Shown in pieces: positions 47 through 60,802 of a stretch of DNA of 64,000 nt. Numbering within the stretch: the first letter of the stretch is position 1; every line of letters begins with the position of its first letter. The notes beneath the pieces are model-generated. The model saw nothing but the letters and a program-made list of their open reading frames with translations. It was not told where the DNA came from and did not search any database. A program made the translations under genes and the position numbers. Origin of the DNA: Candidatus Barnesiella excrementavium (GTDB lineage: Bacteria > Bacteroidota > Bacteroidia > Bacteroidales > Barnesiellaceae); contig DXDM01000006.1 of the NCBI GenBank assembly GCA_019115485.1, positions 1-64,000 on the forward strand, written 5' to 3'.

Positions 47-98
47 CAAAAGTACGTTGTTTGACCTGACAATCGGTTGGAATATTCCAACCGATTGT
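47..98 (-). promoter_or_regulatory. Promoter -7 element and 30-bp perfect palindrome for a gene left of the window
   Basis: Read on the minus strand, positions 54 to 47 give TACTTTTG, a match to the Bacteroidetes -7 element TAnnTTTG. Just upstream of it (69-98) lies a perfect 30-bp palindrome with half-sites ACAATCGGTTGGAAT and its complement. It covers the region where the -33 contact would fall, as an operator would. It could instead form a hairpin in a longer transcript begun at the upstream repeat promoter (163-194). The gene served starts left of position 1. Confidence 0.5.
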
Positions 99-140: not shown

Positions 141-196
141 CCGAACCGACTCCTATCTTCTGTAAAGATAGCGAAAGGTAAAAGCTGTGGCAAAGA
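141..196 (-). repeat. Promoter-bearing intergenic repeat, single unit facing left
   Basis: A divergent unit of the repeat family seen also at 1741, 32051, 33123, 36537 and 60637. On the minus strand it has TTTG (194-191), a 20-bp spacer ending CCTTTCGC, and TATCTTTA (170-163), followed by the family segment ACAGAAGATAGGAGTCGGTT. It points to the gene off the left edge. The rest of 1-296 contains no coding sequence that I can support. Confidence 0.7.
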
Positions 197-262
197 AAGA
201 GCTGAAAAAAATGAAACCTCGACTTTTATCGGTACAAAATTCAGAGAATAACAAAATTTGTG

Positions 263-1740: not shown

Positions 1741-1979
1741 GAGAGGCTGCGGCCCGACCGAGTTCTACTCGAAAACTTCGCTCCCCGCTTGCCATTACTC
1801 TCGCCTTTCACTATCTTTGTTTCACGAAGACAGGAGGCGGCTCGGCCTTGTCAAACTTGAAAACTCCGTTTCCGTTTGCCACGGCTCTCGCCTTTCACTA
1901 TCTTTGTAGAAGATAAGATGCGTCTCAGCAGAAAAATCAAGTGGGCTTGTTTTTCTGCTTTCGACTTTCACTATCTTTG
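1741..1979 (+). repeat. Tandem promoter-bearing repeat array before rsgA (3 units)
   Basis: Three units end in TATCTTTG at 1812-1819, 1899-1906 and 1972-1979 (spacing 87 and 73 bp). Unit 2 has TTTG at 1875-1878 and a 20-bp spacer; unit 1 has CTTG at 1788-1791 with a 20-bp spacer; unit 3 has a poor -33. Units 1 and 2 share CTCGCCTTTCAC before the -7 element. Between units lies the conserved GACAGGAGGCGGCTCGGCC (about 1829-1848). The last -7 element ends 20 bp before the rsgA GTG. This array fills most of the 352-bp gap after frr; I see no gene in it. Confidence 0.85.
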
Positions 1980-30525: not shown

Positions 30526-31857
30526 ATGAAAAAATATATTTTAGTACCAGTATTGGCAGCCCTGTCTTTCTCGGGTCTGGTTGCCCAGGATTTCGATACT
30601 GATCCTGTCGTAAAGATTCAAAACGACGACGTTAAATTTACCGTAGGTGCCCGCATGATGGCCGACGTGGCTTACTACCACTCCGACTTCACTCCGGTAA
30701 AATCGGGAGCAGCATTGACCGATGCCCGTATCCGCACCTCGATGTCGTATAAAGATTGGTATTTCTATGCCGACTTTGACTTCTCAAAAGGTAAATTTGC
30801 TCAAAAGAACATCTTCCTGCAATATGCCTTGGAAGGTCTCAGAGGTACTCACCTGTTCAAGGCCGGTTACTACAATAACCCTGCCTCCATGGCCAACAAC
30901 ACGAGCCGCGGCAGTTTGCACTTCATTTCGCGTGCCGCACCGGTCAACGCCATGTCGCCGGGTCGTGAGCTGGGTTTCAGCTACATCTTCTACAACGACC
31001 ACTTCTTTGCCAACCAAGGTGTGTTTGCCGAGAATATGTATAACGACCAAATAGCCGGTTTCCAAGGTGTTACATTCGGTGGTCGCTGGCTGTGGCGTCC
31101 AGTAAACAATGAAAACCACACGTTCCACATCGGTGCCAACTTCCGCTATGCCAACATCGCAACAGGCGAAGTGTACAACAATACGCTGCAAACCAACTAT
31201 ACCATCGGCACTTCGTTGGAAACTTACGTAGACCCCACCAAACAATTCGTAACGGCTACGATGCCTTGGGCCAAGAACGTATTCGATGTCGGTGCCGAGT
31301 TACTCTACAAGAACGACAACTTCTTTATCCGTGGTGAATACATGTACAAATATGTGACCAAAGAGCGCGACGACCAAACTCTGTTCGAGGCCAACCTCGG
31401 TTCTATCGACTCGTGGGGCTCGCTCGAATCTTGGCAAAAAGGTAACCCCCTGGGATCAAATCAATTCCACGGCGGTTATGTAGAAGCCGGTTACAAGATT
31501 TTCGGTAAAGCCTATGGATACAGCAATTCCGAAGGTTTGTTGAAAGGTCTGGACGGCCAAGCCTTGGAAATCGTAGCCCGTTACAGCTATGTAGGCTTGA
31601 ACGACATCGTGGACGGCGAACGCTATGTGCTGGGTCGTGACCAATACTATCCCGATGGTATTCTGGCCGACTATCCCTCAACCTCGTTGAGCATTGGCGG
31701 TGGTAACATGCACTCGGCTACACTGGGTATCAACTACGCATTCAACAAATTTGCACAGATCATGTTAAGCTACACTTACAACAACCTCGATCGTGACAAA
31801 TTTGCCTACGACGAGAACTTCCACACCGTGCAAGCTCGCTTGATGTTCCAATTCTAA
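30526..31857 (+). CDS. Outer-membrane porin, phosphate-selective O/P-like family
   Basis: The 443-residue protein starts with a signal peptide (MKKYILVPVLAALSFSGLVAQ), then a beta-barrel pattern with many alternating aromatic strands, and ends in LMFQF with the terminal phenylalanine of outer-membrane barrels. FTVGARMMADVAYY and DARIRTSMSYKDWYFYADFDFSKGKF resemble the OprO/OprP family. By position it probably lets glycerophosphodiesters or phosphate compounds cross the outer membrane; the exact solute is inferred. A strong double terminator follows. Confidence 0.85.
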   Translation: MKKYILVPVLAALSFSGLVAQDFDTDPVVKIQNDDVKFTVGARMMADVAYYHSDFTPVKSGAALTDARIRTSMSYKDWYFYADFDFSKGKFAQKNIFLQYALEGLRGTHLFKAGYYNNPASMANNTSRGSLHFISRAAPVNAMSPGRELGFSYIFYNDHFFANQGVFAENMYNDQIAGFQGVTFGGRWLWRPVNNENHTFHIGANFRYANIATGEVYNNTLQTNYTIGTSLETYVDPTKQFVTATMPWAKNVFDVGAELLYKNDNFFIRGEYMYKYVTKERDDQTLFEANLGSIDSWGSLESWQKGNPLGSNQFHGGYVEAGYKIFGKAYGYSNSEGLLKGLDGQALEIVARYSYVGLNDIVDGERYVLGRDQYYPDGILADYPSTSLSIGGGNMHSATLGINYAFNKFAQIMLSYTYNNLDRDKFAYDENFHTVQARLMFQF

Positions 31858-31919: not shown

Positions 31920-32020
31920 GCCCAGTCTACTTGTGATAAGTAGACTGGGCTGACCATAGGAGACAGCGAGGGGAAAGAAAGAGTCAACGCTACTCTTTCT
32001 TTCCCCTCTTCTTTTTTTCT
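31920..32020 (+). terminator. Double terminator after the porin gene
   Basis: First hairpin: a perfect 13-bp stem GCCCAGTCTACTT (31920-31932 with 31938-31950), loop 5. Second: a perfect 17-bp stem GAGGGGAAAGAAAGAGT (31968-31984 with 31992-32008), loop 7, then TTCTTTTTTTC. The second is a textbook intrinsic terminator. It closes the glp region. Confidence 0.9.
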
Positions 32021-32050
32021 CGGGACGAAACAGTCGTCAGGTCCCGCCCT

Positions 32051-32252
32051 CAAAACCGGATTTTCGTTTGCCCCTGCTCCCGACTTTGGCCCATCTTGCT
32101 GGATACCGCATCGGGGTGCGGTATGGCTGCGGAAGCCTGAGTATCCCCGCACCGTGACGCGGGAGTCGGCAAAAGAGGCATATCTAAGACAAAGCTCAGC
32201 CAAGCAAATTCGGCAAGCTTCTTTGCGTTGCGCTTACCTTTCGCTATCTTTA
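32051..32252 (+). repeat. Promoter-bearing repeat array before folB (2 units, the upstream one decayed)
   Basis: The gene-proximal unit has TTTG (32222-32225), a 19-bp spacer ending CCTTTCGC, and TATCTTTA (32245-32252), 17 bp before the folB ATG. Upstream family fragments are CAAAACCGGATTTTCGTTTG (from 32051) and GCTCAGCCAAGCAAATTC (from about 32194). Between them lies a perfect 8-bp hairpin ATACCGCA/TGCGGTAT (32103-32124). No gene is seen in 31858-32269. Confidence 0.7.
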
Positions 32253-32643: not shown

Positions 32644-33099
32644 TTATTGCTTCACCGGTATCTTGTCAATGCGACGTTGGTGGCGGCCGCCTTCAAACCC
32701 GGTATTCAAAAAGATGTCGACCAGGCGACGACACAAATCGGCCGAGATGAACCGGCCGGGCATCACCAGCACGTTGGCATCGTTGTGCTGACGGGCCAGC
32801 GAAGCAATCTCTTCGTTCCAGCACAAGGCAGCACGAATGCCCTGATGCTTGTTCAAAGTCATGTTTATGCCATTGCCGCTACCGCAGATGGCAATACCCG
32901 GATAGCACTCGCCCTGCTCCACGGCAACGGCCAGGGGGTGGGCATAGTCGGGATAATCGCAACTGTCGGTCGAATAGGTACCGAAATCCTTATAGGCAAT
33001 ACCCCGAGCATCGAGTTCCTGCATCACAACTTGTTTCATCTCATACCCGGCATGGTCGCAGGCCAATCCCACCGGCTTTCCCGATTTCAATATACTCAT
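32644..33099 (-). CDS. rpiB: Ribose-5-phosphate isomerase B
   Basis: Interconverts ribose-5-phosphate and ribulose-5-phosphate in the pentose phosphate pathway. The 151-residue protein has ACDHAGYEMKQ near residue 13, DYPDYAHPLA, and ICGSGNGINMTLNKHQGIRAALC around the active site; the general-base cysteine of the family is usually near this CGSG loop. Transcribed from a promoter-repeat array on its 5' side (33123-33275). Confidence 0.95.
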   Translation of the reverse strand: MSILKSGKPVGLACDHAGYEMKQVVMQELDARGIAYKDFGTYSTDSCDYPDYAHPLAVAVEQGECYPGIAICGSGNGINMTLNKHQGIRAALCWNEEIASLARQHNDANVLVMPGRFISADLCRRLVDIFLNTGFEGGRHQRRIDKIPVKQ

Positions 33100-33122: not shown

Positions 33123-33275
33123 CAAAGATAAGTAAAGTGAGAGTAACGCATATCAAGTTTACCTGAATATGTTCTGTCAAACGTGTCTTTATCTGCTATA
33201 ACGAGCGCGAACGGCGAGAGCCGTGGCAAACGAAAACACGGTTTTCAAATTTGCTTATACCGAGCCTCAGCCTCA
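33123..33275 (-). repeat. Promoter-bearing repeat array before rpiB (2 units, the upstream one decayed)
   Basis: On the minus strand the gene-proximal unit ends in TATCTTTG (33130-33123), 24 bp before the rpiB ATG. The distal unit (about 33190-33275) keeps GAGGCTCGGTATAAGCAAAT, then GAAAACCGTGTTTTCGTTTG and CCACGGCTCTCGCC, nearly identical to the rsgA array, but its -7 element is lost. 33276-33591 is AT-rich with no gene that I can support. Confidence 0.7.
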
Positions 33276-36513: not shown

Positions 36514-36536
36514 ATTGCTGGATATAGTCATCGACC

Positions 36537-36759
36537 AAGGCAATTCTGAAAACTATGCCCCATTTATCCTTGCGCTCGCCTTTCACTGTATTTACAGAAT
36601 ACAGGAGGCGGCTCGGCCAAGGCAATTCTGAAAACTACGCCCCATTTATCCTTGCACTCGCCTTTCACTGTATTTACAGAATACAGGAGGCGGCTCGGCC
36701 AAGGCAATTCTGAAAACTACGTTTTCATTTGCCTTTGCGCTCGCCTTTCACTATATTTG
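36537..36759 (+). repeat. 82-bp tandem promoter-repeat array (3 units) before the Dpm1-like gene
   Basis: Units begin at 36537, 36619 and 36701 (period exactly 82 bp), each starting AAGGCAATTCTGAAAACTA. The first two are nearly identical and carry the degraded -7 sequence TGTATTTA. The third has a full promoter: TTTG (36728-36731), a 20-bp spacer ending CTCGCCTTTCAC, and TATATTTG (36752-36759), 27 bp before the ATG. Between units is ACAGGAGGCGGCTCGGCC. No gene is seen in 36514-36786. Confidence 0.9.
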
Positions 36760-36786: not shown

Positions 36787-37542
36787 ATGGACCCTATTGC
36801 ACCTTCGAGATCAGACTGTATCGTTCTCATTCCCACCTACAACGAGAAGGAAAATATTGCTGCAATTATCCATGCCGTATTCGAGTTGCCTCGTCCGTTT
36901 CATATCCTCATCATCGACGACAACTCACCCGACGGAACTGCCGACATCGTGCGCTCGCTGCAAAAACAGTTCCCCGGAGCACTCCACATGATTGAACGCC
37001 CCGGCAAACAGGGGTTGGGCACGGCCTATATCACCGGGTTCAAATGGGCTATCGCCCGCGGCTATGAATATATCTTCGAGATGGATGCCGACTTCTCCCA
37101 CAACCCGCAAGACCTGATGAACCTGCTGGCGGCCTGCAAAACCGGCGGCGCCGATGTGGCCATAGGCTCCCGCTACGTGACGGGGGTCAACGTGGTGAAC
37201 TGGCCCATGGGGCGGGTGATGATGTCCTATTTCGCCTCGAAATATGTGCGCTTCATCACCGGCATGAAGATTCACGATACGACGGCAGGCTTCGTATGCT
37301 ACCGTCGCCGGGTACTCGAAACCATCGGCCTCGACTCGATTCGGTTCAAGGGATACGCCTTCCAGATTGAGATGAAATTCACTGCCTACAAGTGCGGCTT
37401 TGTCATCAAGGAGGTGCCTATCATATTCATCAACCGGGTATTGGGCGAGAGCAAGATGAACAGCAGCATCTTCGGCGAAGCCGTATTCGGTGTCATCAAA
37501 CTGAAAATAGACAGTTGGTTCCGCAAATATCCCAAGCGGTAA
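36787..37542 (+). CDS. Polyprenol monophosphomannose synthase-like glycosyltransferase (GT2)
   Basis: Transfers a sugar, probably mannose from GDP-mannose, to polyprenyl phosphate on the cytoplasmic face. The 251-residue GT-A protein has LIPTYNEKENI, IDDNSPDGTADIV, and the metal site EMDADFSHNPQDL, then IGSRYVTGVNVVNWPMGR and GFVCYRRRVLE, all of Dpm1 type. It has no membrane span. pyrC follows after 40 bp and probably shares the repeat-array promoter. Confidence 0.88.
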   Translation: MDPIAPSRSDCIVLIPTYNEKENIAAIIHAVFELPRPFHILIIDDNSPDGTADIVRSLQKQFPGALHMIERPGKQGLGTAYITGFKWAIARGYEYIFEMDADFSHNPQDLMNLLAACKTGGADVAIGSRYVTGVNVVNWPMGRVMMSYFASKYVRFITGMKIHDTTAGFVCYRRRVLETIGLDSIRFKGYAFQIEMKFTAYKCGFVIKEVPIIFINRVLGESKMNSSIFGEAVFGVIKLKIDSWFRKYPKR

Positions 37543-59929: not shown

Positions 59930-60586
59930 TCACATTTCCAAATAATACATCAACTCTTTGATACGCTGCTCGATGCGGTCGTCCATCACGCTGTGCAACT
60001 GGTAGCAGCTCAGCACCCGATAGTCAAACCGCTCCAACGAACGCAGCACCGGTGTGGCGTCCTCACGGTCGATGCGCAGACAAGCACGCCACAGGCCCGA
60101 CTCCTCGTCGGGGCGTATCATCAGATTCATCACCCGACAACCGTTATCCTCCACCAGGCGGGTAAGCTCGGTCGCCGAGTAGTCGGCCCGAGGGATTTCC
60201 AGTTCGATGATGGCCCCCGACGACGAAGTCTGACACAACCGGGCCACGGCCACCATCACCGCATGAATGGGGATAGCCCCCACGTAGCGGCGGTTCCGGT
60301 CGACCACGGGAAGCACGTCGTCGGTATATTGGGCAAACTGGTTCACCACGTCGAGCAGATGAGTCTCCTCCCGCACGGCGGGCCGCCTGAGCGTCTCCCG
60401 TCCGACCGTATCCTCGTCGTGCTCGCCGGCCAGTTCCTGCCGGTGAAGAATGCCCACATACTCCCCCACATCGACCACCGGCAGACTCGACCGGCCCGAA
60501 CGGTCCAACACCGCACGGGCCTGCCCCACCGTCATCTCGGCCGACAAGTAAGGTATTTCGGGCAATATCATATCTTTTGCTTTCAT
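59930..60586 (-). CDS. CBS-domain protein (AcuB-like)
   Basis: The 218-residue protein has two CBS domains (about residues 1-125: MILPEIPYLSAEMTVGQARAVLDRSGRSSLPVVDVGEYVGILHRQEL and TDDVLPVVDRNRRYVGAIPIHAV). A C-terminal ACT-like domain follows (AIIELEIPRADYSATELTRLVEDNGCRVMNLMIRP). The AcuB-like build suggests nucleotide sensing, perhaps linked to NAD(P) through its nadK neighbour; this is inference. Read from the three-unit promoter array. Confidence 0.85.
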   Translation of the reverse strand: MKAKDMILPEIPYLSAEMTVGQARAVLDRSGRSSLPVVDVGEYVGILHRQELAGEHDEDTVGRETLRRPAVREETHLLDVVNQFAQYTDDVLPVVDRNRRYVGAIPIHAVMVAVARLCQTSSSGAIIELEIPRADYSATELTRLVEDNGCRVMNLMIRPDEESGLWRACLRIDREDATPVLRSLERFDYRVLSCYQLHSVMDDRIEQRIKELMYYLEM

Positions 60587-60636: not shown

Positions 60637-60802
60637 CAAAGATAGTGAAAGGTGAGTGCAAAGCAAAGATGCTTGCAGAATTTGCTTGGCCGAACCGCCT
60701 CCTGTCTTCTGTAAAGATAGTGAAAGGTGAGAGTAGAGACAAACGAAAACACAGTTTTCAAGTTTAGCCACGCCGAGCCCGATTCTATCGCACATAAAGA
60801 TA
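60637..60802 (-). repeat. Tandem promoter-bearing repeat array (3 units) before the CBS-nadK unit
   Basis: On the minus strand the -7 elements are TATCTTTG (60644-60637), TATCTTTA (60719-60712) and TATCTTTA (60802-60795), spaced 75 and 83 bp. The two gene-proximal units have TTTG with 19- and 20-bp spacers (60667-60664; 60743-60740) and share ACCTTTCAC. The conserved GACAGGAGGCGGTTCGGCC lies between units. The rest of the gap to pdxJ (60803-60905) holds no gene; a weak plus-strand TACCTTTC at 60833-60840 might serve pdxJ. Confidence 0.85.

Follow-up and report, generated by a model that had tools for sequence, protein, structure and literature searches.

Tandem copies of a short foldback DNA unit precede genes in a Barnesiella genome. 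The reading that best accommodates them, and which we regard as probable, is that of a mobile, non-autonomous element that lands in promoter −7 boxes and itself ends in a new one. The window, a stretch of 64,000 nucleotides, is part of contig C56 in the 2.68-Mb draft genome of a Barnesiella species. The evidence comprises direct observations on the position and direction of the units, on empty and filled sites in related genomes, on the pairing of the two arms of the unit, and on differences between species.

Units, arrays and neighbouring genes

The repeat family proposed in the first-pass annotation of the window is real. The core 20-mer CTCGCCTTTCACTATCTTTG has eight matches in the window with three or fewer mismatches versus none in 100 shuffles, and GACAGGAGGCGGCTCGGCC has four window matches where 0.05 are expected. 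Together with a profile of the unit, these matches place related units at all six loci named in that annotation; at the locus at 141, where tandem repeats had been described, there is a single diverged unit. The features of the window are as follows.

164..203, minus strand: diverged single unit, found with the profile
1744..1819, plus strand: unit 1 of the rsgA array, ending in the −7 box TATCTTTG
1832..1906, plus strand: unit 2 of the rsgA array, inner type A (CAAACTTGAAAAC..GTTTCCGTTTG)
1917..1979, plus strand: unit 3 of the rsgA array, inner type B (AAAAATCAAG..CTTGTTTTT), with the terminal −7 box TATCTTTG
32050..32251, plus strand: folB array of two degenerate units (folB identified by TIGR00525)
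33207..33272, minus strand: single unit upstream of rpiB, a minus-strand gene at 32644-33099
36531..36593, plus strand: unit 1 of the array before the gene at 36787, found with the profile
36603..36675, plus strand: unit 2 of the same array, found as repeat family D4
36685..36759, plus strand: unit 3 of the same array, with the terminal −7 box TATATTTG
60637..60703, minus strand: terminal unit, inner type C, before the minus-strand gene at 59930-60586
60713..60785, minus strand: first unit, inner type A, of the 60637-60785 array, found with the profile
60795..60802, minus strand: probable native −7 box TATCTTTA at the upstream edge of the 60637 array

Each unit is a foldback of about 65-90 bp in which conserved outer arms, AAGATAGGATGCGGYTCGG ... 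CTCRCCTTTCRCTATMTTTG, surround an inner segment. The −7 boxes of the units match TATMTTTG by pattern, which corresponds to the TAnnTTTG element in the consensus for Bacteroidales sigma-ABfr promoters quoted in PMC7366714. From this motif and from their position, the boxes are putative promoter elements. The promoter match proposed earlier holds for the −7 box; the TTTG element at −33 that was described with it is not constant, since TTTG lies 19-21 nt upstream of the −7 box in 132 of 219 units (raw count). At rsgA, which is identified by NCBIfam family TIGR00157, the terminal box TATCTTTG is located 20 nt ahead of the GTG start codon at 2000. The second unit of the array before the gene at 36787, a gene that has no NCBIfam match at the threshold used, belongs to an 82-bp period that is 96% identical to the preceding one. 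The diverged unit at 164..203 points, as judged by eye, at an ATG about 126 nt further on, whose reading frame runs off the contig. Between this unit and the ATG lies a perfect 30-bp palindrome (window 69-98; ACAATCGGTTGGAATATTCCAACCGATTGT) with an operator-like appearance. Elsewhere, an inverted repeat at 31920-31950 (GCCCAGTCTACTTGTGATAAGTAGACTGGGC) resembles a terminator and is located downstream of a gene ending at 31857.

A genome-wide search with the pattern CCTTTCRCTATMTTTR gave 46 exact matches and 28 with one mismatch, versus none for its reversed control. The profile then yielded 54 arrays holding 86 units, a count that covers 217 kb, including the window, fetched around pattern and BLAST hits, so that diverged copies elsewhere are missed. 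The downstream gene lies on the strand of the array in all 52 arrays for which a downstream gene was called, and the two arrays that lack one are near contig ends. Thus, the claim that the units point at a gene start is borne out, as is the promoter-directed bias that the first-pass annotation had named as support. Genes flanking these 52 arrays are codirectional in 27 cases and divergent in 23, with two arrays lacking a called upstream gene; random direction would give half at the 27 arrays between codirectional genes. None of the 54 arrays is inside a called gene. For comparison, 7 of the 54 gaps in the window are convergent. From the last unit to the called start codon the median distance is 46 nt, with 42 of 52 distances at 110 nt or less and one of 1101 nt; start codons come from a crude gene caller, which probably placed the folB start 27 nt too far downstream.

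Proteins encoded downstream of 20 of the 52 arrays were scanned against NCBIfam. Seven are above the family cut-off (rsgA, folB, rpiB, ispD, rpe, a MATE transporter and xerD), six have matches exclusively below it (RNase R, PriA, CutC, a dehydrogenase, an aminotransferase and MgtC), some of these being truncated at the edge of the fetched stretch, and seven have no match at 1e-20. The downstream genes in this scanned sample form no visible regulon. At L016:424-1353 (contig C34 of genome G000), the gene downstream of a two-unit array is the housekeeping recombinase gene xerD itself.

Spacing within arrays is regular. When the own genome and four relatives are considered together, 48 of 75 pairs of adjacent units have their right ends separated by 82-85 bp, most commonly by 83 bp (27/75) or 85 bp (12/75). 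Similarity between neighbours falls into two extremes. Adjacent units are at least 85% alike in their inner part in 27 of 61 pairs versus 2.6% of unlinked Barnesiella pairs, which agrees with the earlier suggestion that the family is homogenised. At the same time, 24 of the 61 pairs have less than 65% inner identity, compared with 64% of unlinked pairs, and some of the dissimilar neighbours alternate in order between two types. The coexistence of near-identical and unrelated neighbours makes it likely that two processes, tandem duplication and successive insertion, build the arrays. Insertion into an existing array is expected if the right end of the unit is its own target.

Foldback structure of the unit

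The unit is not simply a promoter but a foldback whose arms covary, a feature that the first-pass annotation overlooked. A parser kept 232 units with both arms, taken from Barnesiella and, in other Bacteroidales, from loci no longer than 8 kb, with units lacking a readable left arm being dropped. Covariation was assessed in 111 units: 14 belong to the own genome, and each of the other 97 lies on a different contig, with some of these contigs sharing an organism. Of the ten arm pairs tested, three exceed all 500 shuffles. At S1.3, 94 of 109 units are paired versus a shuffle mean of 54 (G-C in 62, T-A in 32); at S2.2, 107 of 111 versus 93 (G-C in 100, C-G in 5, T-A in 2); and at S2.3, 104 of 111 versus 59 (C-G in 69, T-A in 35). 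The remaining seven pairs are near-invariant or not above shuffles. In a two-by-two table for S2.3, 171 of 180 units are matched and nine unmatched, after 47 of the 232 units were skipped and five further units with other letters were set aside. The units are related, and these counts are not independent. Mismatched arms also occur when all units are considered, with C-A at S1.5 in 63 of 220 and A-C at S1.3 in 19 of 220.

The inner segment keeps its shape while its sequence changes. Clustering at 70% identity gives 59 inner groups, of which 40 are clearly palindromic (fold z < −2 versus mononucleotide shuffles) and 19 have z values of −2 or more. The mean inner fold is −6.0 kcal/mol, compared to −2.6 kcal/mol for arm-swapped chimeras, and the native fold beats the mean chimera in 51 of the 59 groups and is no better in eight. 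This combination of a free inner sequence and a conserved shape points to recognition of the folded form, and template-switch correction of palindromes could add to the conservation of shape.

Imperfect terminal inverted repeats (AAGATAG/CTATCTT) are formed by the arms, and the left arm can also pair with the −7 box located upstream of the unit. The variable base of this pairing is matched in 58 of 67 cases (G-C in 40, T-A in 17, A-T in one) among upstream boxes taken as native, some of which may belong to decayed units. Where the upstream box is readable, TAnnTTT is 4 nt from the left arm in 117 of 176 units and 8-14 nt away in 51 of 176. By eye, long gaps between box and arm are often palindromic, with a sequence that differs from copy to copy (L192, L244, L245, L246 and L256).

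Empty and filled sites and the distribution of the family

Inspection of the rsgA locus by eye reveals units in three of nine Barnesiella genomes, whereas the other six lack them and carry another promoter-like box. These empty sites have boxes such as TACATTTG, compared to the TATCTTTG that ends the array. As the boxes differ, this is not plain target duplication, and the right box either arrived with the unit or has changed since.

For the 26 multi-unit arrays of the own genome, orthologous upstream regions were sought in three relatives (G008, G003 and G007), and 75 of 78 were found. The own genome and G008 have different numbers of units at 15 of the 26 loci, five of which are unit-free in G008, although absence elsewhere is inflated by the choice of loci with at least two units in the own genome. 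A few locus matches are short or weak, and some compared regions may therefore not be orthologous; the counts include locus 4, for which the G008 region rests on a 30-nt match with a misplaced start, and locus 15, for which the three relatives rest on 67-nt matches at 78-79%. The array at 36531-36759 illustrates the variation, with one unit in G008, two in G003 and none in G007. Among 29 unit-free orthologous places, a TAnnTTTG box is located within 3 nt of the place of the terminal box in 12, compared to 3.1% of random places, and within 8 nt in 19. No box is present within 8 nt at the other ten.

An informative junction is found at window position 60637. The empty site in G003 reads TAGCTATCTTTG/TATAACTTTCG with no array between, and the own genome reads TAGCTATCTTT[array]CTATCTTTG/TATAATCTTTCG. 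With longer flanks, TAGCTATCTTTG in G003 is followed by TATAACTTTCGTGC, and the CTATCTTTG that ends the array in the own genome is followed by TATAATCTTTCGTGC. In the empty site, the box TATCTTTG runs directly into the native downstream sequence, and one unit occupies this place in G007. These junctions indicate that the native box forms the left boundary of the array, whose right boundary is a box of its own. As a test of target-site duplication, the two loci give different pictures, with a −7 box on both sides of the array at 60637 and different boxes at rsgA.

A survey of 393 Bacteroidales genomes gave an exact 16-mer match in 25, some with a single match that might be due to chance given the three matches of the reversed control. 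In 19 genomes chosen after this survey, a 20-mer search allowing two mismatches produced 15-74 matches in nine genomes and zero or one in the other ten, and this split between carriers and non-carriers runs inside four genera. Carriers among the matches listed include Paraprevotella clara, Paraprevotella xylaniphila, Leyella lascolaii, Xylanibacter rarus, Bacteroides caecigallinarum, a Paludibacter and an Alistipes. No match was found in 197 genomes from the rest of the phylum with one mismatch allowed. In the samples searched, the family thus occurs exclusively in Bacteroidales and is patchy within genera.

Viral contigs contain no exact match, and weak matches are limited to three phage contigs and one plasmid; an origin from phages or plasmids is not supported by these searches. 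The plasmid, from Phocaeicola massiliensis, carries one unit-like stretch (OY726013.1, 16435-16516), and three unannotated fecal phage contigs (MT835991.1, MT836408.1 and MT836672.1) carry single ones. These stretches are possible vehicles or lie on misassigned contigs.

Proposed mobility, rival explanations and known systems

In the mechanism that we favour, each unit would be one copy of a non-autonomous mobile DNA, about 65-90 bp long and with a complete −7 box at its right end. Insertion would take place at the TAnnTTTG of an existing promoter, leaving the native box upstream of the unit, and the unit's own box would presumably take over the task of driving the gene. Because the unit ends in a new −7 box, it could re-insert into itself while the gene stays transcribed. 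Later copies would insert into the element's own box and, along with tandem duplication, give rise to the arrays. Since the arms pair and the inner sequence varies freely, it is presumably the folded form, as a single strand or a cruciform, that is recognised, and a factor acting in trans might move the unit. Mobility itself is our inference from sequence comparisons. A more specific version of this mechanism is possible but doubtful. It describes a transposition system in which the hairpin is read by shape, the left arm pairs with the −7 box of an open promoter, the unit inserts one way as a folded single strand, its own −7 box serves as the next target, the enzyme belongs outside the families tested, and housekeeping promoters are replaced repeatedly without loss of expression.

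No enzyme able to move the units was found among the families tested. A Y1 (RAYT) mover is not supported, with PF01797 present in 5 of 29 genomes, including one of nine Barnesiella. The Y1 genes observed (L161-L170) belong to G002, G149, G315, G342 and G378, four of which carry many units. The Y2/IS91 family (PF04986) occurs in one of 19 genomes, a non-carrier, and reverse transcriptase (PF00078) in five of 20, four of them carriers, with none in the own genome; neither is supported as a mover. Tyrosine recombinases were compared in seven genomes. The Xer group is present in all seven, and no group is present in every one of the four carriers yet absent from all three non-carriers. One pair is shared exclusively by the carriers G000 and G076, and the carrier G036 has two other tyrosine recombinases whose nearest relatives in the set are from non-carriers. 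This comparison makes a dedicated recombinase unlikely, and Xer proteins may act on the unit. No integron integrase was found among the tyrosine recombinases of the same seven genomes, and TIGR02249 appears among the scanned downstream proteins as a below-cut-off match of one XerD. Of the 227 left arms in the fetched loci, 12 have no right arm in the next 80 nt, and no full-length autonomous copy was seen in the 120 nt following each of these 12.

The same arrangement might have arisen from old promoters without transposition, if they were spread and homogenised by homologous or microhomology-driven recombination between −7 regions, together with tandem slippage, and were kept by selection for strong tandem promoters. 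Such a process would account for the excess of near-identical neighbours and for the usual agreement in type between the upstream box and the one belonging to the unit, and it agrees with transposase searches that found none fitting. We nevertheless consider it unlikely, as the promoters read at empty sites have little in common with the unit apart from the 8-bp box, and species of one genus have either at least 15 copies or nearly none. Selection on promoters also leaves the paired arms and the variable inner palindrome unexplained, although template-switch correction might account for them. Another explanation, to which we give a low probability, is a structured 5′ leader RNA, whereby the upstream −7 box starts a transcript at about the left arm, the hairpin stabilises or regulates the mRNA, and the second box is a further promoter. 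The arms covary as RNA would, and the left arm is located near the expected start, at either of the two common distances past the upstream TAnnTTT. In 19 of 29 comparisons, however, the terminal box lies close to the native box's position, and the main transcript would consequently lack the hairpin. Moreover, nothing about a leader requires that it turn up at dozens of unrelated genes or that sister species lack it, and membership in a known RNA class was rejected because no Rfam family reached the gathering score in six sources.

An operator family for one DNA-binding regulator would also show conserved arms and palindromes in front of genes, but this explanation is very improbable given that the sequence of the inner palindrome is free, that the scanned downstream genes are functionally mixed, and that presence at a given gene varies among related species. 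The first-pass annotation had offered both a mobile or homogenised promoter cassette and a binding site for a regulator. The cassette is the better-supported of these, given a genome-wide family with full directional bias, empty and filled sites, and an array boundary that coincides with the native −7 box. The regulator site is disfavoured by an inner palindrome that changes its sequence yet mostly stays palindromic and by the lack of a visible regulon among the 20 scanned genes. Finally, a REPIN-like element moved by a RAYT (Y1 transposase) would likewise produce foldback copies between genes, and the pairing of the presumed-native upstream box with the left arm at a variable base recalls the guide-target pairing of IS200/IS605 elements (PMC6006769). 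With PF01797 missing from the own genome, from eight of the nine Barnesiella and from eight of the 11 other carriers in the set, we regard this as extremely improbable.

If the mobile foldback reading is true, dozens of promoters of ordinary or housekeeping genes in some gut Bacteroidales would be recent, interchangeable cassettes. This would constitute a natural route to rewire expression without silencing the host gene, and would explain how a mobile element survives in the promoters of important genes. The presence of carrier and non-carrier species within one genus permits a clear search for a new recombinase or transposase, and the units represent a ready natural set of tandem promoters for a little-studied genus.

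In the open-access literature searched, we recognised no earlier description of the element. The features that appear new are the foldback with a free inner sequence, the edge at a native −7 box, the self-target end, and the patchy spread. REP/RAYT systems are similar in having short, multi-copy palindromes between genes and guide-target pairing (PMC6006769). In contrast, the own genome has no Y1 match, and the units are fixed in position and direction at promoters. Integron attC sites provide another parallel, with low sequence conservation, an imperfect palindrome, recombination of a folded strand, oriented insertion and arrays (PMC8946536). The units share the attC-type trait of a conserved, predicted fold with a variable inner sequence. 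Unlike attC sites, they carry no gene, no integrase was found in the seven genomes compared, and their target is promoter boxes across the chromosome. The imperfect arms also provide the terminal inverted repeats of a MITE of a DDE transposon. ERIC, BOX and similar repeats are imperfect intergenic palindromes whose mover is unknown, and in this respect they resemble the units; they are not known to insert, with a fixed orientation, into one promoter element. The target of the units resembles what we take to be the integration site of CTnDOT.

The BrickBuilt MITE of Porphyromonas gingivalis is similar in occurring in Bacteroidales, in being always intergenic (19 copies in one strain), and in its tandem repeats of varying number; it has promoter activity in a reporter and is discussed as a possible putative mobile promoter (PMC4596501). 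As described there, its own features include 23-nt repeats, terminal repeats such as GAGACCTTTGCA, promoters both ways and fairly stable places (PMC4596501). Membership of the units in BrickBuilt was rejected because these 23-nt repeats and GAGACCTTTGCA ends are lacking and the unit length and ends differ. Unlike BrickBuilt, the units are foldbacks of 65-90 bp that face one direction, have edges at −7 boxes, and differ greatly between species. More generally, putative mobile promoters, or cases of promoter reuse, are recognised as similar promoters in front of unrelated genes. The concept is named in PMC4596501, and to it the units described here add a defined edge, a foldback structure, and a terminus that serves as a target for the unit itself.
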